This document shows, piece by piece, positions 20,221 to 58,400 of a DNA stretch of 64,000 nucleotides (positions are counted from its first letter, which is position 1; each line of letters begins with the position of its first letter). Origin of the DNA: a virus; IMG/VR virus record IMGVR_UViG_3300036768_001490, positions 1-64,000 of that record; one strand, 5' to 3'. A program made the position numbers and the translations under genes. The notes beneath the pieces were generated by a model. It worked only from the letters and a program-made list of their open reading frames with translations, had not been told where the DNA came from and did not search any database.

Positions 20221-21768
20221 TCAGATGCAATGGCCGCCGACACGGACCAGACGGACCTCCTCTTCCAGGAACGTGTCTGCCGCGACCTCTTCCTCGCAGG
20301 TGCGTCCTAGAAAGTAGCGTACTTCCTCGCTGTAGCCCGGGGCTTCCTCGCTGCCCGGGCCTTCCATGATAATCTCGTCCGTGTCCGTTTCCAACTGCAT
20401 CAGGAGGATGTAGGCCATGTGCGGCGGCAGCAGTTTGCGCAGGACGCGGACATGTCCCAGGCCCAGGTGGTGCGGCCCCTGCCGGCGCGGCCGCAGCTGG
20501 ATTACCAGCAGGTTGTTGCGGAACACGTTCTGGAGCAGGAAACCGAGGGCATTGACCTTCCTGGGAAGGGCCAGCGGTCCCGGGCGCATGTCCCGGGCCT
20601 CGGGCGGCCGCGTGTCCAGCAGCATGGCCAGGGTCTGTCCACGGGCGACCCCCGCCGCGTGTGTCATGCTCCAGAACCTTTCCACATCGGCCGGGTAGCC
20701 GCCAAGCTCAAAATACACGCGCGTTGGCGTCTCCGGCCCGTCGTCCTCCACGACCAGGTCCACCTCCTTGTTGGCGAAGACCACGTCCTGGTAATACCCC
20801 TCATCCAGGAAGCCGCGCCCGACGGCCAGGGCCTTGATTTCAGGCGGCACCTGGCCGCGGTGGAACGTGAAGAAGCGCAGCGTGTCGGTCAGCGGCTGCC
20901 CGGGCGCCAACCAGTCGCCCACGCGCACCAGCACGGTGCTGTCCCGGTGGAAGGAGTAGGCGCGCCGGCTGGTCACGACCCACTGGTGCCGGCCGTCGCG
21001 GAAGATCAGCTCGACTACCTCGTCTCCCTCAGCCAGGGGCACGTCGCAGATGGCGCTGAGGGCTGCCTCCAGGCTGCGCTCCGTGGCCCCTTCCACCAGG
21101 CAGTCGAAGACGGCGTTGACCAGCGCCAGGGCCTGCGGCGTGGACGGCAGTTGCAAGCCGACGGCGTAGCCGTACTGCGTATGCACCGCGTCTCGGTCCC
21201 AGCCGCTGCGGTACAGCCAGAGGGTTGCCTCGCGGTCCTGGACGCGGCCGTCCACGTAGATTTCCCGCTGTCCCACGCGCTCGTCCGCGAAGGGGTCTTG
21301 CCGGAACCAGATGGCCCCGTTGTCCAGGAAGAAGTCCACGCCCCTGGACCAGGTGAGGCTGGGGGAGGTGATGCGGTTGCTGATGACCAGGACATCGGCC
21401 AGTCCGGCCGGCAGCGGCCAGACATGGTAGCGCGTGTCCAGGGGCTGGTCGTACACCAGCCCGTCCGCATACGTGAACTGGCCGTCGTGGCGGGCCAGGT
21501 TGGCCACGGTCCGGTTCTTCTCAGAGGCGCGCAGGCGCAGGCAGTACCAGTTGTCCGTGTGCAACAGGGGCAGCCGGGACCGGCTCAGGCTGGCCGCCAG
21601 GTGCAGGATGTCGTCGTGGGACTGCTGGGCGAGCTGGCCCCGCGCGTACAACATGCTTTCGACCAGGAAGTTTCCCGCGTAGATGCCGGACCAGAAGCCG
21701 CCTACCTGACGCAAAAGTACCTGGGCGTTGTCGAGGTCAGACGCGGGGAAGCGGAAACTGTCGCCCAT
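20221..21768 (-). CDS. Virion structural protein, probably baseplate (515 aa)
   Basis: 515 residues, soluble, no signal peptide. The N-terminus MGDSFRFPASDLDNAQVLLRQVGGFW is helical. The middle alternates helices and strands (DQPLDTRYHVWPLPAGLADVLVISNRI; DGAIWF-type strands around FLDNGAIWFRQDPFADERVG). The C-terminal part (NALGFLLQNVFRNNLLVIQL, LRKLLPPHMAYILLMQLETDTDEIIM) looks like a packing interface. It is the first gene after the minus-strand terminator that closes the haem-protein cargo, so it may need its own promoter. The Shine-Dalgarno at the ATG is weak. Function is inferred only from the baseplate/fibre neighbourhood. Confidence 0.6.
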   Translation of the reverse strand: MGDSFRFPASDLDNAQVLLRQVGGFWSGIYAGNFLVESMLYARGQLAQQSHDDILHLAASLSRSRLPLLHTDNWYCLRLRASEKNRTVANLARHDGQFTYADGLVYDQPLDTRYHVWPLPAGLADVLVISNRITSPSLTWSRGVDFFLDNGAIWFRQDPFADERVGQREIYVDGRVQDREATLWLYRSGWDRDAVHTQYGYAVGLQLPSTPQALALVNAVFDCLVEGATERSLEAALSAICDVPLAEGDEVVELIFRDGRHQWVVTSRRAYSFHRDSTVLVRVGDWLAPGQPLTDTLRFFTFHRGQVPPEIKALAVGRGFLDEGYYQDVVFANKEVDLVVEDDGPETPTRVYFELGGYPADVERFWSMTHAAGVARGQTLAMLLDTRPPEARDMRPGPLALPRKVNALGFLLQNVFRNNLLVIQLRPRRQGPHHLGLGHVRVLRKLLPPHMAYILLMQLETDTDEIIMEGPGSEEAPGYSEEVRYFLGRTCEEEVAADTFLEEEVRLVRVGGHCI

Positions 21769-21820: not shown

Positions 21821-21853
21821 AAAAAGGGCGGACGGTCCGTGGACCGCCCGCCC
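21821..21853 (-). terminator. Rho-independent terminator after the haem-protein cargo
   Basis: On the minus strand a 13-bp stem (12 of 13 pairs, arms 21841-21853 and 21826-21838) is followed at once by TTTTT and more T-rich DNA. It lies 42 bases after the stop of the 21895 gene and ends the cargo transcript before the next baseplate gene. Confidence 0.8.
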
Positions 21854-21894: not shown

Positions 21895-22587
21895 TCAATG
21901 ACAGCTCGGGCAGTCGGCTTGGCCCAGGCCCCGGCAGCCACGGTCGGAACGGTAGTTGACCTGCCGCTGCTGGCGAATGACCGCTTGCGGACGCTCCTGG
22001 ACGGTCACTCGCTCGATCACGCTGCGGAACTCCTGGTAGTTGGAGCCTTTCTCGCGCACCTGGTCCGAGCAGCAGCCGTCCGGGCAGGAAGCGGACCTGT
22101 CTTCCTGCTGTGTCACGTCAGCGGCCGGCGCCACGTAGCGGCGCTCGATCACCTCGGTGCGCACGGTCGCCGGGGCCGCGTAATAGTAGACCACGTTGTC
22201 TGGCACAAAGCGCACGTTGGCAGCGCTGTGGTTCGCAAAGCTGAACGTGTTCAGCTGGTTCAGCAGGCCGCGGGAGCGCCGGTCCACCAGCAGCTGCTCG
22301 CTGACGACGTGGCCAGGCACCACGTTGTTATGGACGACCAGTCTGCGCTGCCCGCTGCTGCTCACTGCGGCGGTCGCCGCGGCACCGCCTGTCGTGGTCA
22401 CGCGGGTCGTGCTGCGCCGGCCAAACAGGGCGCCGAGCAGGCCGCCGCTCCGCTCCGTCTGGGTCACTGTCTGCTGCGTGTTGCCGCTGCGGACAGCTAA
22501 AGAATTGCCCCGTGCGGCCTGCGGGCCGCCGGTGCCTACCAGCAGGGCGGCTGCCGTGCCGACAAGGGCAACCAGGGACTTGGGCAT
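21895..22587 (-). CDS. Exported protein ending in a CxxCH motif (230 aa)
   Basis: A Sec-type signal peptide is clear: MPKSLVALVGTAAALLVGTG, then a small-residue cleavage region (GGPQAARG). The mature protein is Thr/Gln/Val-rich, with a Gly-rich patch (GGLLGALFGRRST), an alanine stretch, a CPDGCCSD cluster and, as its last five residues, CPSCH. This is a c-type haem-attachment motif at the extreme C-terminus, with no visible room for a full cytochrome fold after it. AAGGAGG before the ATG fixes the start at 22587. It is the third exported CxxCH protein in a row. It may take part in extracytoplasmic haem or disulphide chemistry; the role is unproven. Confidence 0.7.
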   Translation of the reverse strand: MPKSLVALVGTAAALLVGTGGPQAARGNSLAVRSGNTQQTVTQTERSGGLLGALFGRRSTTRVTTTGGAAATAAVSSSGQRRLVVHNNVVPGHVVSEQLLVDRRSRGLLNQLNTFSFANHSAANVRFVPDNVVYYYAAPATVRTEVIERRYVAPAADVTQQEDRSASCPDGCCSDQVREKGSNYQEFRSVIERVTVQERPQAVIRQQRQVNYRSDRGCRGLGQADCPSCH

Positions 22588-22634
22588 CGTTTGCCTCCTT
22601 CTGTCTGTGCGCTGGTTGGGGGATGGGTGAAGTG

Positions 22635-23324
22635 TCATTCTCCCTTGGACAGGGCATACTGGAGGAGCGTGGCCAGGTGTTTGGGCTCCATTGCCTTGGA
22701 AGCGTCGTTGGCAGCGGTCGGCGGCATCGTACCGCTGGATGCCATGCCGTAAATCTTCCAGCGCTTGTCACTGCTGTGCCGGGCCAGGACCAGGCCGCCG
22801 CTGCCGTCGTCCAGGACCAGGCGGAACTCCGTGCCGTTGGGACCGCTGGCGCGCCCGGACGCACCGTGGCAGCCAAGGCAGTTGGCACGTCCCTGGTATG
22901 CCGCGATGACCTGCTGCTGGAGTTCCAGAGGAGTCGCCGTGTCCGGCGCCAGGGACTGGGGCTTGTTGGGCTGCTGGGGCTGGTTGGTGGACTGTGGACG
23001 TGGCGCTGTCGGCTGCGGCACGTTACCGGACACCAGGGCGCGCAGCTCCTCTCGGATGACGTCGCGGATGTAGGCTTTCTCGCGGTACGCCTCTCCGATG
23101 GAGTAGTAGTACGGCTGGCCGTAGGCGTACACGGGCACGGCCCGCGAGTCCACGGGCACGGTTACGACATAGGGAGCGACGGCGATCTCCTGGGCAATGA
23201 TCTTCTGCACGGGGTAGACCTGGGGTGCCGGCGCCGTGTAGGTGTGGGAGTAGTTGGAGCAAGGTACGCTCCGTTGGGGTTGCCCTGGCAGCAGTGCCAG
23301 GGCAAGGAACATGGCCGAGTGCAT
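22635..23324 (-). CDS. Exported monohaem c-type cytochrome-like protein (229 aa)
   Basis: A short hydrophobic leader (MHSAMFLALALLPGQ) starts the protein. Residues about 25-75 are Tyr/Pro/Val-rich (VYPVQKI, YAYGQPYYYSI). A Pro/Gln linker leads to a small class I cytochrome c-like domain: CLGCH at residues 149-153 for haem attachment and a GTMPPT segment near 197 that could supply the Met ligand. The C-terminal helix PKHLATLLQYALSKGE matches cytochrome c endings. AAAGGAGAG precedes the ATG. It sits between the two other exported CxxCH genes and probably carries electrons outside the cytoplasmic membrane. Confidence 0.8.
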   Translation of the reverse strand: MHSAMFLALALLPGQPQRSVPCSNYSHTYTAPAPQVYPVQKIIAQEIAVAPYVVTVPVDSRAVPVYAYGQPYYYSIGEAYREKAYIRDVIREELRALVSGNVPQPTAPRPQSTNQPQQPNKPQSLAPDTATPLELQQQVIAAYQGRANCLGCHGASGRASGPNGTEFRLVLDDGSGGLVLARHSSDKRWKIYGMASSGTMPPTAANDASKAMEPKHLATLLQYALSKGE

Positions 23325-23337
23325 CCTTGCTCTCCTT

Positions 23338-25014
23338 TCACTTGTCAGGGCGCATTTTCCCGCTTTTGCGGCGTTCGAGCAAGAGCAACCCGGACTCCTG
23401 GAAGCCGCCGCGCTCCCAGGTATGGCGCGGTACGGGCACGCCGGAGAGGGCCAGGCGTCCCAGGCGTCCTTTGGTGGACCCTTCCGGGTAGTCGGGCGTG
23501 CCAGGACCGTAGGCGAGGGCGTCGGACAGCTCCTGGGCGTCCGTGCCCAGCTCGCGCGCCGCCTGGTCCAGCGTGACGGGCTTGTTGTACCAGGCCCGGA
23601 TTCGCTGGAAGCTCTGCACGCTCTCCTGCGGCGTCAGGCCCGTGCATTCACGGACGAACTCGGCATAGTTCTCCTGGTCCTGCTGGATCAGCTTCCGCAT
23701 CTTCTGCTCTTGCAGGTGGAACTGGTTGATCCGCTCCATGCGGCCGGCGTCGTAGGCATAGAGCTTGAGCCCCTCGCGCAAAAGCAGGGGCATCTCGTTG
23801 CGGTAGCCCAGGATGCCGACGTCGTGGCAGTGGATGCAGGAGCGTGGCGTGAGCAGAACCGTGTTGTGCGGACCGGACGGGTCTCCCTTGACCAGGAACG
23901 GGTTGGCGAAGTCCACCCCTTTGCCCTGGCCGTCGCTGAGGAAGTAATACTGGGCGCCGCGCTCGTCCTGGAAGATGTGTTCTCCGGCGTCGAACTTCAG
24001 CGGGAAGGGGTTCTGCACGAAGTCCTGGTCCCCGGCCGTGCGGAAGACATCGAAAGTGCGCCAGTAAATTCCGATCTTGCTACGCACGCGCCAGACGATG
24101 CGGTTGTTGTAAGCCACGCCGGACATGCCCTGGTCGATCAGCCCTCCCTTGTCGGTCGGGAACTCCTTGAGGTGGTCGAACTCCACCAGCCAGGCCGACT
24201 CGAACTCGGCCGCCGTGCGCGGCGCCTCGCCCTTGACCTTCGTTTTGACCTTCTTGACGACCTCGACCTCCTCCTCGTGCGGCCGCACGCTACCGTCCGT
24301 GTAGCGGTAGTTCACGACCTTCTTTTCCTTCACCTTCTTCTCGACCACGCGGTCAAAGGTGGCATTGGCGTACAGCAGCTGGTAGTAGAACGCCTTGGGG
24401 TTGAAGATCTCTGCTCCCTTGGCGTTGATGAACTCGCCGTTGTCGAAGACGTACCACAGCCACCAGTCACCGCGCACGACGGGGTTGGCCCGCGTCTCGT
24501 GCCGCAGGTAGTTCAGCCCCTTGGCGGCGCTGGGGATGATCGGCTCGCGGTAGTACGGGTCTTCCGCGGAGATATTCTCCCAGACCTGTGGCGACCAGTT
24601 GAACCAGCACAGGTCGATCCAGTAGATGCGGTTGTCCGTGTTGGGCACGGGCCGTGGCAGGTAAGTGATCGGCGTGCGCGCCGCGTCGTTGCACCCCTTG
24701 AACAGGGCGCTGGTAGCCGCGGGCAAGAGCTGCCGTGGCACCTCGGCCAGGCTGAAGAAGCGGATGCGGCAACGGTCCTTGTCGTTGACCGTGGCCAGGA
24801 ACTCGGCGCAGCGCTCGAAGATCTGCTCTGGGCTCCAGGCCGGAAACTCGGGCGTCAGCCGGTTGCGCAGGCGCTCCAGGTGCGGGTCGGGCGGCTTCTC
24901 GGCCTGCTTTGCCGCGTTCGTTCCCTGGGCAGGGGCCGGTGGCGCTGCTCCTTCTTGCGCCAGTAAGGCAACGGCTACCGTCGCCAGGCCAAGGACAGCG
25001 ACCAGCTGGCGCAT
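23338..25014 (-). CDS. Exported protein with single CxxCH haem motif (558 aa)
   Basis: Signal peptide MRQLVAVLGLATVAVALLAQ, then a Pro/Ala-rich linker. The mature part is mixed alpha/beta and rich in Trp and Tyr (YWIDLCWFNWSPQVWEN, GDWWLWYVFDNGEF), with a Lys/Glu/Val-rich insertion near residues 240-275 (KKVKEKKVVNYR). A CIHCH haem c motif is at residues 393-397 within LTPRSCIHCHDVGILGYRNEMP; the nearby Met could be an axial ligand. The style resembles planctomycete cytochrome proteins of unknown function. The start at 25014 has GGGAGG upstream. It follows the metalloprotease gene by 23 bases and is probably co-transcribed with it. Confidence 0.75.
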   Translation of the reverse strand: MRQLVAVLGLATVAVALLAQEGAAPPAPAQGTNAAKQAEKPPDPHLERLRNRLTPEFPAWSPEQIFERCAEFLATVNDKDRCRIRFFSLAEVPRQLLPAATSALFKGCNDAARTPITYLPRPVPNTDNRIYWIDLCWFNWSPQVWENISAEDPYYREPIIPSAAKGLNYLRHETRANPVVRGDWWLWYVFDNGEFINAKGAEIFNPKAFYYQLLYANATFDRVVEKKVKEKKVVNYRYTDGSVRPHEEEVEVVKKVKTKVKGEAPRTAAEFESAWLVEFDHLKEFPTDKGGLIDQGMSGVAYNNRIVWRVRSKIGIYWRTFDVFRTAGDQDFVQNPFPLKFDAGEHIFQDERGAQYYFLSDGQGKGVDFANPFLVKGDPSGPHNTVLLTPRSCIHCHDVGILGYRNEMPLLLREGLKLYAYDAGRMERINQFHLQEQKMRKLIQQDQENYAEFVRECTGLTPQESVQSFQRIRAWYNKPVTLDQAARELGTDAQELSDALAYGPGTPDYPEGSTKGRLGRLALSGVPVPRHTWERGGFQESGLLLLERRKSGKMRPDK

Positions 25015-25037
25015 GCGTGGTCCTCCCTGCTGCCTTC

Positions 25038-26000
25038 TCAGGCAACTTTCTTGCCGTTCAGCCACACGGCATGGAACCGTCCCCGAACCACCAGCTCCGC
25101 TTCGCCTCCGGCCGCAGCGCCATCGGGCGGCGCCGGCGCGTCCTGGCGCGCGCCGTACCGCGCCTGGAAGCGGGGAATGTCGTCGTTCTCCTGGGGCACC
25201 TGGACCGCGGCGTTGTAGTAGGGGGCCATGAGGGCAGACGGCACCCTGCTGTGGTCCAGGCCGAACAGGTGGCCGAACTCGTGACAGGCCACGTTGAGCA
25301 GCAGGATACCGCGCCGCTTCGGGTCCAAGGTCCAGGTTTCGTCCGCGTCGAAGCGCATCAGGAGCTGGTTGTCTCTGCCGGTGGGCAGCTGGGCCCAGGC
25401 CAACGTGCCGCCGGGGCCATCGAAGTGGGACTGGGGTCCCTGGCCGGTGGCGATCAAGATGTCGGCCTTGCCCTGCTGCCGGACCGGCTCCACATTGATG
25501 TTGCCGTGGCGCGTCCATGCCTGGAAGGCTTCATGGACCGTGCTCTCGAAGTCGGTCCGGGAGATCCCCGGGACGTATTCCAGGATAAAGTACGTGAGGC
25601 GGTCCTTTTGCCAGCGCGGCAGGTTGGCACGGATGAACTGCCGCACGGTGTCGGACGGGTGGCCAGCACGGGCGTGCTCCGGGAAGCCGCAGCGCGGCGC
25701 CGTCATCGCGCGCACGGTCTGGACGCAGACCTTGCCGGTGCGCGGCAGACCGAACCAGGACTGGAAGTCCTTGATAGCGGCGACGATGTCGTCGGCCTGG
25801 ATGTCGCGCCAGCTGGCCAGTTCCTGCGGCAGGTAGCCGAAGGTGTCGAGGTAGGACAGGACGAAGCGGGCGACCTGTGCGTCCGGCGCGTGCCCCCGGT
25901 GGCAGCGGCGCCGTGGCCGGCCGGTGCAGTGGCTGTCCTTCGCCCCTGCCTCCATGTGTTGCAAGAGAAGGTTGACTGCCTTCTGGTTGACGGCTGCCAT
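25038..26000 (-). CDS. Matrixin (M10A, MMP-like) metalloprotease with cysteine-switch prodomain (320 aa)
   Basis: Architecture closely matches matrix metalloproteases. Residues about 45-100 are the peptidoglycan-binding-like propeptide (FGYLPQEL, IVAAIKDFQSWFGLPRTGKV), ending in the cysteine switch PRCGFPE (about 102-108), whose Cys would hold the active-site zinc. The catalytic domain carries HEFGHLFGLDHS (240-251) with the three zinc-binding His, and the Met-turn SALMAPYY. There is no hemopexin domain and no obvious Sec signal, so release at lysis or packaging in the virion must be considered. AAGGAGG precedes the ATG. It lies directly after baseplate J and heads the exported haem-protein genes. 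It probably cleaves proteins at the cell surface. Confidence 0.9.
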   Translation of the reverse strand: MAAVNQKAVNLLLQHMEAGAKDSHCTGRPRRRCHRGHAPDAQVARFVLSYLDTFGYLPQELASWRDIQADDIVAAIKDFQSWFGLPRTGKVCVQTVRAMTAPRCGFPEHARAGHPSDTVRQFIRANLPRWQKDRLTYFILEYVPGISRTDFESTVHEAFQAWTRHGNINVEPVRQQGKADILIATGQGPQSHFDGPGGTLAWAQLPTGRDNQLLMRFDADETWTLDPKRRGILLLNVACHEFGHLFGLDHSRVPSALMAPYYNAAVQVPQENDDIPRFQARYGARQDAPAPPDGAAAGGEAELVVRGRFHAVWLNGKKVA

Positions 26001-26031: not shown

Positions 26032-27684
26032 CTACATGTCGGACGGGACCGTCGCAGCCACCGAGATGCCGATGTCTTCGGGAGAGATGAAGAACTGCAC
26101 AGTCCGCGCACTGACCATGCTCGCTGGCTCATCGGGCACGTCCAGCCTCTCGCTACTGCGCAGGTAGCGGACCGAACTGTCGGGATACCGGATGCGTCCC
26201 AGCATGTCAATAGCAGACACGGTCTGGTCGTTGCGCAGGTAGGCGTGGACCACGTCTTGCAGGCGCGACGCATCGAGCCGTCCGATGAAGCCGATGCGGT
26301 TGATCTCGGTGGCCAAGGCGTCCCGGATGCGGTCCAGGTCCGGGTCGGGCTCGCCGGAGCGCTTGTGGATGGTGAAATGCAGCTGGACGAAGCAGGGCAC
26401 GGGGGCCTTGACCAGCAGGTCGTGCGTCGCCGGCCGTTGCTCGCGCGTGCTGAAGTAGTCCTGGATGTCGGCCAGCAGCGGCATGAGGCGGGCCTCCAGC
26501 TCGTACTCCTTCCGGGCGCCGAGGTCGAGGGAGCTGGTGTCCGTTTCCGTGTCATGGAACTGGACCGTGCCGGCCTGGTAGCGGCTGTAGACCCACTCGA
26601 CGGAGTCCGGCAGCACGTCTGGAATGAAGCCTGGGCCGGTCAGGTCTGCCACGCGCGTGTCGCGGACGAGAGGGAATCCTCCCGCTGCCGGCGCGGACCG
26701 CCGGGGGCGGATGTTGCCGACCTCGTAGTAGCCGGGTGCCTCGTCCCGGCCGATGGAGAATTGCCAGATGCCGCTACCGTCCGGGCGCTTCTCCACCAGC
26801 ACGGCCTCCTTGACCAGGAGCTGGCGGTGGACCTGCTCCTGGCTACGGACATACCAATCGACGCGGCCGCCTCCGGCCACGGGGAAGATCCAGTGCCGGT
26901 CCCGGCGCATCTCCGGGTCGCCGTAGCCGACCACGGACAGGTGGACGATGTGTGCGAACGCCTCCACGTCGCGCAGCGTGGCGGACATGTGGACGCGTCC
27001 GGCCAGCCCCTTGGCGGCGATGCCTTCTTGCAGGCGCAGCAGGAGTTCCTGGTTGGTTTCTGCCCGGCGGCCGCCCTGGAAGTCCTGGGAGGCGAACGAA
27101 GTGACGTAGGCGGTGGGCGGGGACAGGGGCACGACCAGGGTGTCCTTCTTGATCTCGTACTCTTCCCCCTCTTCTTCCGCTTCCACCTCGATGGTGAAGG
27201 CGAAATGGCCGTCGCCCGTGGGCGACAGCAGACGGTCGCCTGGCTCGTTGATGCTGGACTCTTCCACCTTGGCCGAGAACACGCGCGTGGCAAGGAAGCG
27301 CTTGCCCTGGGCCTCGAACACGCTTCCGGCCGCAATGGTGACGGTGACGTCGTCGCGCAGGATGATGGTCACATGGCCCCTGGCCCGGCTGCCTGGCTTG
27401 CGCCGCAGCCGGTAGTTGGACAGCACGTCATCGACCAAATCGGGGTCCGCCAGGAGGGGGTCGGCCTCCAGGGCGCGCAGGCTGCGCGCCAGCCAGTAGT
27501 CCTGGATGCTGGCCTGCCGTTGCGTCTCCAGAACCGCGTGGTAATAGGCCAGCAGTTCGGCAAAGACGCCGCGGCGGACGTCCAAGTGGGGATTGTCTTC
27601 CTGGATGCGCTGGAGGATCTCGGTCAGGTTCTGTTCCACCTGGTCCGGGTCCAGCTGTGCCAGGGGCCGAAGTCGGATCGTCAT
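26032..27684 (-). CDS. Baseplate J-like wedge protein (550 aa)
   Basis: Matches the baseplate J family (phage P2 gpJ / T4 gp6-like). The N-terminal helical part has the typical DVRRGVFAELLAYYHAVLETQRQASIQDYWLARS. The body includes FEAQGKRFLATRVFSA and INEPGDRLLS, with the expected adhesive beta core, and the segment TNQELLLRLQEGIAAKGLAGRVHMSATLRDVEAFAHI matches the family. It should build the baseplate wedge of a contractile tail. The start overlaps the stop of the C39-like gene by four bases (ATGA), showing translational coupling. Its 550 residues are longer than many J proteins; a C-terminal extension is present. Confidence 0.85.
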   Translation of the reverse strand: MTIRLRPLAQLDPDQVEQNLTEILQRIQEDNPHLDVRRGVFAELLAYYHAVLETQRQASIQDYWLARSLRALEADPLLADPDLVDDVLSNYRLRRKPGSRARGHVTIILRDDVTVTIAAGSVFEAQGKRFLATRVFSAKVEESSINEPGDRLLSPTGDGHFAFTIEVEAEEEGEEYEIKKDTLVVPLSPPTAYVTSFASQDFQGGRRAETNQELLLRLQEGIAAKGLAGRVHMSATLRDVEAFAHIVHLSVVGYGDPEMRRDRHWIFPVAGGGRVDWYVRSQEQVHRQLLVKEAVLVEKRPDGSGIWQFSIGRDEAPGYYEVGNIRPRRSAPAAGGFPLVRDTRVADLTGPGFIPDVLPDSVEWVYSRYQAGTVQFHDTETDTSSLDLGARKEYELEARLMPLLADIQDYFSTREQRPATHDLLVKAPVPCFVQLHFTIHKRSGEPDPDLDRIRDALATEINRIGFIGRLDASRLQDVVHAYLRNDQTVSAIDMLGRIRYPDSSVRYLRSSERLDVPDEPASMVSARTVQFFISPEDIGISVAATVPSDM

Positions 27685-28100
27685 GGCGACGCCCTCGCTG
27701 TCCGGTCTGGCCGCAGAGCGGCGAAGAACGTGACGCGCTGCACCGGTCCGTCCAGCCAGCCGCCTGCCGGGTGTGGGTCATGCGCGAACTCGAAGCCATC
27801 GTCCCAGCGCGTGAGTCCCACGACGGCGTGGGGCCAGTCTCCTCGCGGGCTCTTACCGCTCAGGATGACGGGCACGCCGGGCGTCATGGCCGTCACGGAC
27901 CGGCCTTCCGGAGGCAGGCGTACCTCCACGGCCAGCAGGTTACGGCGGGACAGCCATTCCTGGAGACGGCGCCACCAGCCGGGACCGGCGGCCTGGAAAT
28001 TAGGCACGTCGTCCAGGTCGAGGATCATGGCCACGCAGGTGGCAAAGCAGTCGCTGCGTTCCGGGTCATTTGTGATGCGCTGGTAGCGTTGTCGGATCAT
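27681..28100 (-). CDS. C39-like/papain-fold cysteine peptidase (139 aa)
   Basis: The layout is that of small C39-like peptidases. DCFATCVAMILDLDDVPNF near the N-terminus supplies Cys18, WPHAVVG supplies His91, and FAHDPHP supplies Asp108, giving a plausible Cys-His-Asp triad. There is no signal peptide. It is tightly placed between a gp25-like gene and baseplate J, with ATGA overlaps on both sides. It may process a virion protein during assembly or cut peptide cross-links on entry; the sequence alone does not decide. Confidence 0.65.
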   Translation of the reverse strand: MIRQRYQRITNDPERSDCFATCVAMILDLDDVPNFQAAGPGWWRRLQEWLSRRNLLAVEVRLPPEGRSVTAMTPGVPVILSGKSPRGDWPHAVVGLTRWDDGFEFAHDPHPAGGWLDGPVQRVTFFAALRPDRTARASP

Positions 28101-58043: not shown

Positions 58044-58400
58044 TCACATGCCGCCAAGCAACTGCCGCAGGCGCGCCAGCTCCTCCGCGCTGAGCGCCTC
58101 CTGCTTCTGGAGCGCCTGTTCGCCGCCGGCCTCACGCAAGAGCTTGCGCAGCAACAGCTCCCGGAGCAGCTGGTCCGTGGCCGTGTCCGGACGAGAAGGC
58201 TGCTGCACGACAACGGGACTGAACACCGGCGCCGGATAGTAGTAATAGCTGAAGTAAGTGACGTAGGCCGGCGATGGAGAATACACCGACCGGCTGGCAG
58301 AGGAGTAGCACGAGGAGCCATGTGCCGCCGCCGGCGCCGCCAGTCCCAGCAGGCTGGCAAGGAACATGGCCGCCGGCACCAGGAACAAGGATGGCCTCAT
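58044..58400 (-). CDS. Exported Tyr/Pro-rich small protein (118 aa)
   Basis: Clear Sec signal: MRPSLFLVPAAMFLASLLGL followed by APAAAHG, a likely cleavage region. The mature part starts with Ser/Tyr-rich sequence (SSCYSSASRSVYSPSPAYVTYFSYYYYPAPVF), then a charged helix (TDQLLRELLLRKLLREAGGEQALQKQEALSAEELARLRQLLG). Its Tyr/Pro style recalls the exported 22635 gene. AAAGGGG precedes the ATG. It looks like host-type cargo among head genes, possibly acting at the cell surface; the role is unknown. Confidence 0.65.
   Translation of the reverse strand: MRPSLFLVPAAMFLASLLGLAAPAAAHGSSCYSSASRSVYSPSPAYVTYFSYYYYPAPVFSPVVVQQPSRPDTATDQLLRELLLRKLLREAGGEQALQKQEALSAEELARLRQLLGGM

Follow-up and report, generated by a model that had tools for sequence, protein, structure and literature searches.

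A conserved pair of predicted exported haem c-type proteins encoded by large phages

The window, which is the whole stretch of DNA analysed here (64,000 nucleotides), comprises bases 1–64000 of a 182,719-bp virus record in which the minus strand holds nearly all called genes. The phage identity of the record is indicated by a major-head match, tail and fibre family matches, RNA polymerase beta pieces, a baseplate J gene, and tubulin/FtsZ, ATP-cone, and Thy1 genes. Four block genes (g23 to g20) occupy a slot between two border genes (g24 and g19), with the following features.

26032–27684, minus strand: g24, baseplate J-like protein and upstream slot border (Pfam PF04865, 4.7e-12; PHROG 6 baseplate wedge, 3.1e-23), with homologues in L010, L125, L126, and L127.
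25038–26000, minus strand: g23, M10 matrixin-like metalloprotease with a PG_binding_1 pro-domain (PF00413, 1.1e-33; PF01471, 2.3e-6).
25686–25697, minus strand: PRCG, a cysteine-switch-like motif of g23 (residues 102–105), invariant with L010; the M10-like protein of L131 also has it, as EPRCGFPD.
25251–25283, minus strand: HEFGHLFGLDH, the zinc-binding motif of g23 (residues 240–250).
23338–25014, minus strand: g22, large predicted exported haem-c-type protein of an unnamed family (G22), with an N-terminal hydrophobic leader.
23824–23838, minus strand: CIHCH of g22 (residues 393–397), a motif kept in homologues.
22635–23324, minus strand: g21, small putative mono-haem cytochrome c with weak Cytochrom_C and PSCyt1 matches.
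22866–22880, minus strand: CLGCH of g21 (residues 149–153), an invariant CxxCH.
22719–22727, minus strand: Met-Pro-Pro of g21 (residues 200–202).
21895–22587, minus strand: g20, predicted exported low-complexity protein with CPSCH as its last five residues.
21826–21853, minus strand: intrinsic terminator closing the block (12-pair stem, TTTTT tail).
20221–21768, minus strand: g19, presumed baseplate/wedge protein and downstream slot border, with homologues after the module in L010, L125, and L126.

The first-pass annotation had described an MMP-like protease within a baseplate locus and a minus-strand terminator at the end of the block, and the M10 match next to baseplate J and the hairpin read from 21853 to 21826 confirm both. 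Each of the four block genes is preceded, close to its start, by a purine-rich sequence resembling a ribosome site, and the GC content and codon use of the block resemble those of the rest of the phage. The tail-region order is the same in an independent record (L010; 234,886 bp), where most genes are 50 to 78% identical; another record, L009, is near-identical. This shared synteny, together with the matching GC and codon use, ruled out host contamination or a chimera as the origin of the block. An assembly error can likewise be discounted, because the same block recurs in the independent 235-kb phage contig with ∼53 to 60% identity for the pair and the protease. Elsewhere in the record, the small protein upstream of baseplate J (27681–28100, minus strand) appears C39-like by eye from its Cys/His/Asp spacing, and an NCBIfam search with it gave no match; a small exported-looking Tyr/Pro-rich protein (58044–58400, minus strand) adjoins the head genes; and repeated similar genes, starting MHCLAWGRVRVG / MHCLASGRVRVG, lie near the record end (135095–139263 and 179715–182347, minus strand).

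The whole record contains four CxxCH motifs compared to 0.5 expected from composition, and three of these are in consecutive genes. These three had been annotated as a haem-c trio, and their positions in g22, g21, and at the C terminus of g20 are as first described. The reading as a trio stands for two members: L010 keeps the motif as CIHCH in g22 and CVECH in g21, along with the M10 zinc and PRCG motifs of g23, whereas its g20 counterpart is only 28% identical and lacks a CxxCH. Because CPSCH is absent from L010 and no CxxCH occurs in the third gene of the other phage loci either, g20 was dropped as a third haem protein and we refer to a haem pair. The leader proposed for each haem gene is consistent with proteins of exported type, but by eye g21 of the window has only a short, weak one, whereas leaders are clear in the g21 relatives of other phages.

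The CxxCH motif was kept in 48 of 48 g22 homologues; in the viral forms it is accompanied by no further conserved His or Met. The structure model of g22 was confident (pLDDT of 83.8; one alignment for modelling left out two rows from the phages collection), and comparison of this model with the PDB and viral models gave no match at E ≤ 0.001. A sequence search of solved structures yielded nothing usable, and the family has no Pfam, PHROGs, or solved-fold match. The haem chemistry proposed for the pair is read from its residues. For g21, residues C149, C152, H153, M200, and P201 are invariant in 16 of 16 homologues, and the Met of the Met-Pro-Pro motif is likely the axial ligand by analogy with the cytochrome c family. 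With a single CxxCH followed by an invariant Met-Pro, the g21 homologues resemble mono-haem class I cytochromes c, from which g21 differs by its long low-complexity N-terminal part; its model was poor (pLDDT of 55.5), with no usable PDB match. The scores of g21 against cytochrome c families are below cut-off (PF00034, 16.4 of 21.3 bits; PF07635, 12.9 of 22 bits), and g21 was left out of PSCyt1 (PF07635) because its score is under the curated threshold.

When the block was sought in other phages, it was found again in L010, and the haem pair, in the same order, was present in 15 further virus records. A profile scan detected a g22-like gene in 18 virus records, most of which encode G22 followed by G21. 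In the 595,163-bp phage LR756511.1, a g22-like gene (CIVCH) is followed by a g21-like gene (CAQCH, MPP) and then by an exported low-complexity gene; this phage was the only match of g22 among 50,697 named phage records, in which baseplate J, M10, and g21 had no relative. A scan of genome_contigs with the A1 patterns yielded no relative. In LR756511.1 a second, shorter G22 gene (L116:8724-10630) immediately follows an exported C39-like gene. L129 (IMGVR_UViG_2740892559_000001), although listed among virus contigs, was set aside because its G22 groups with Poribacteria; it is probably a fragment of a bacterial (Poribacteria) genome. The carriers of the pair are several groups of large phages whose hosts are probably planctomycete bacteria.

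The g32-to-g24 baseplate genes are common to the window, L125, L126, and L127, and the slot after baseplate J holds the module in each of these and in L010. The module is followed by g19 and g18 homologues in L125 and L126, and the L127 contig ends inside G22. The pair lies outside this slot in the L114-type phages and in L132. The proposal of cargo inside a baseplate locus is therefore modified: the module is no one-off and is kept in many large phages, several of which carry it in the same slot.

The presence of both the M10 domain and the HExxHxxGxxH zinc motif places g23 among the matrixins, which it also resembles in its PRCG motif; it differs from matrixin MMPs in having no evident leader and in being encoded in a phage baseplate locus. 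The gene next to G22 varies among carriers. M10 adjoins it in the window, L010, and L131; a C1 protease in L094, L114, L117-L119, L121, L123, L127, and L128; a C39-like protease in L116, L122, and L124; and a cell-wall hydrolase in L130 (VanY) and L132 (Amidase_2). In L120, L125, and L126, no protease neighbour of the pair was seen. Searches for Amidase_2 and SLT in the window record found neither, and the M23 matches in this record lie elsewhere and are below cut-off. The C1-like protease gene of L128 (L128:7863-9845) has an apparent intein at the catalytic Cys region.

Bacterial relatives of g22, which are mostly from planctomycetes and Poribacteria, were first found with a sequence motif and were later joined to g22 by profile; the g22 profile A1 recognizes bacterial members at 1e-10 to 1e-17. 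Homology of the G22 domain between phage g22 and the planctomycete di-haem proteins is supported by both the profile and the joint family. Most bacterial relatives carry the first CxxCH in a PSCyt1-like domain (7.7e-6 in L015, 7.5e-6 in L022) and the second in the G22 domain of one protein; fusion to kinase, WD40, or LRR domains also occurs. Phage g22 homologues, with the exception of that of L130, have a single CxxCH and no additional N-terminal one; the next gene supplies the other motif. By sequence comparison, the phages split two haem motifs that most bacterial relatives carry in one chain, and g22/g21 looks like a split counterpart of the planctomycete di-haem protein. The haem domain of the bacterial G22 proteins resembles PSCyt1, as do weakly some phage g21 homologues (0.0019 for L114), whereas phage g21 is a separate gene scoring below the curated cut-off, and no Pfam entry covers the G22 domain. 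No function has been assigned to PSCyt proteins (PMC5615132). In a quick tree, viral G22 sequences, other than that of L129, fell outside the bacterial group, which gives no sign of recent capture from the bacteria sampled, although long branches make this placement uncertain.

A caspase-like gene was found nearby in 22 of 42 planctomycete-type G22 loci, whereas whole genomes (six genomes) hold 1 to 17 such genes; as the loci share ancestry and themselves supplied the seeds of the caspase profile, we treat this linkage as an association and not as a formal test. In L015-L050 and related planctomycete loci, the di-haem G22 gene lies beside exported caspase-like genes, often with a conserved exported protein of ∼380 residues downstream. 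The window and L010 phages each have a caspase-like gene far from the pair; that of the window phage (record 105044-105847; L005:1044-1847, minus strand) has YSGHG and SDCCHSG motifs.

We tentatively suggest that g22 and g21 may form a late, exported two-protein haem redox module. Together with a co-encoded hydrolase, this module would act in the envelope of the host, perhaps at lysis. The pair would be made late, together with the tail proteins, and the host would export both proteins and attach haem. The putative His/Met haem of g21 would pass electrons to or from g22, whose own haem, given the lack of another conserved His or Met in viral G22 proteins, may be open or Tyr-ligated and could bind a small ligand or carry out catalysis. 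In the envelope of the infected cell, the pair and the hydrolase would most likely alter or open the envelope near lysis. Support for an envelope module comes from the conservation of the pair, its order, and its slot, along with the repeated protease or wall-hydrolase neighbours. Against it, the surroundings of tail and lysis genes are a frequent site of unrelated envelope cargo too, the pair has no visible protease neighbour in L120, L125, or L126, and the g21 model is poor. Moreover, the M10 and C1 proteins have no leaders and may therefore never encounter the haem proteins. We consider an envelope role with a co-encoded hydrolase the most likely function, ahead of electron-transport cargo, interference, and a virion role.

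Unlikely, in our assessment, is that the pair serves as metabolic cargo, maintaining or redirecting periplasmic electron flow and thereby supporting energy supply while a large phage infects the cell. In its conserved CxxCH and Met, g21 matches an electron-transfer cytochrome c, and viruses with nitrogen-respiration genes have been reported (PMC8115048). Neither g22 nor its bacterial relatives match a respiratory family, though; the relatives have kinase, WD40, or LRR fusion partners and adjoin caspase-like rather than respiratory genes, and the tail locus suggests late expression. The related proposal of host-fitness cargo in a prophage gained no support, the baseplate J profile having no match in 294 planctomycete genomes in a search run with no positive control.

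The linkage to caspase-like genes in planctomycetes, together with the caspase-like proteins of the window and L010 phages, speaks for a more doubtful possibility, namely interference, by mimicry or blocking, with a planctomycete di-haem/caspase-like module of the envelope that would otherwise be harmful to the phage or the infected cell. A defence-family search gave no match for the phage proteins, and a caspase-like gene is missing from most of the other pair-carrying phages. We regard as less probable again that the haem proteins belong to the tail or baseplate and act at the envelope of the next host during entry; their fixed position in the window and related phages, flanked on both sides by a structural gene, fits such a role, but tails are assembled in the cytoplasm, from which leaders and haem attachment imply export, and the L114-type phages and L132 carry the pair outside this slot. 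Least probable is haem-controlled proteolysis, in which a redox pair would switch a thiol-dependent protease (cysteine-switch M10 or C1/C39-like in phages, caspase-like in planctomycetes) as a cytochrome-plus-protease envelope device common to phages and hosts. The exported partner protein encoded upstream of the module in other phages has no conserved CXXC that would provide redox thiols.

An envelope module of this kind has partial counterparts among known systems. Bacterial di-haem cytochrome c peroxidases are comparable by analogy only: one His/Met haem and one haem with no conserved second ligand would give the pair a similar division of labour. In contrast, g22 has no Pfam, NCBIfam, or PDB-fold match to these enzymes. 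Phage lysis cassettes are alike in that exported proteins lie beside the wall hydrolases of L130 and L132, and differ in that the literature we found names no haem-c protein as a lysis component. Neither the pair nor a phage role for it appears in the open-access papers that we found, which is weak evidence given that scope.

These results point to G22 as a putative c-haem protein family for which we found no Pfam or solved-fold counterpart, and the planctomycete linkage of the di-haem protein with caspase-like proteases is directly testable. If the envelope role is correct, a conserved exported haem redox module would be added to the tool kit of large phages.
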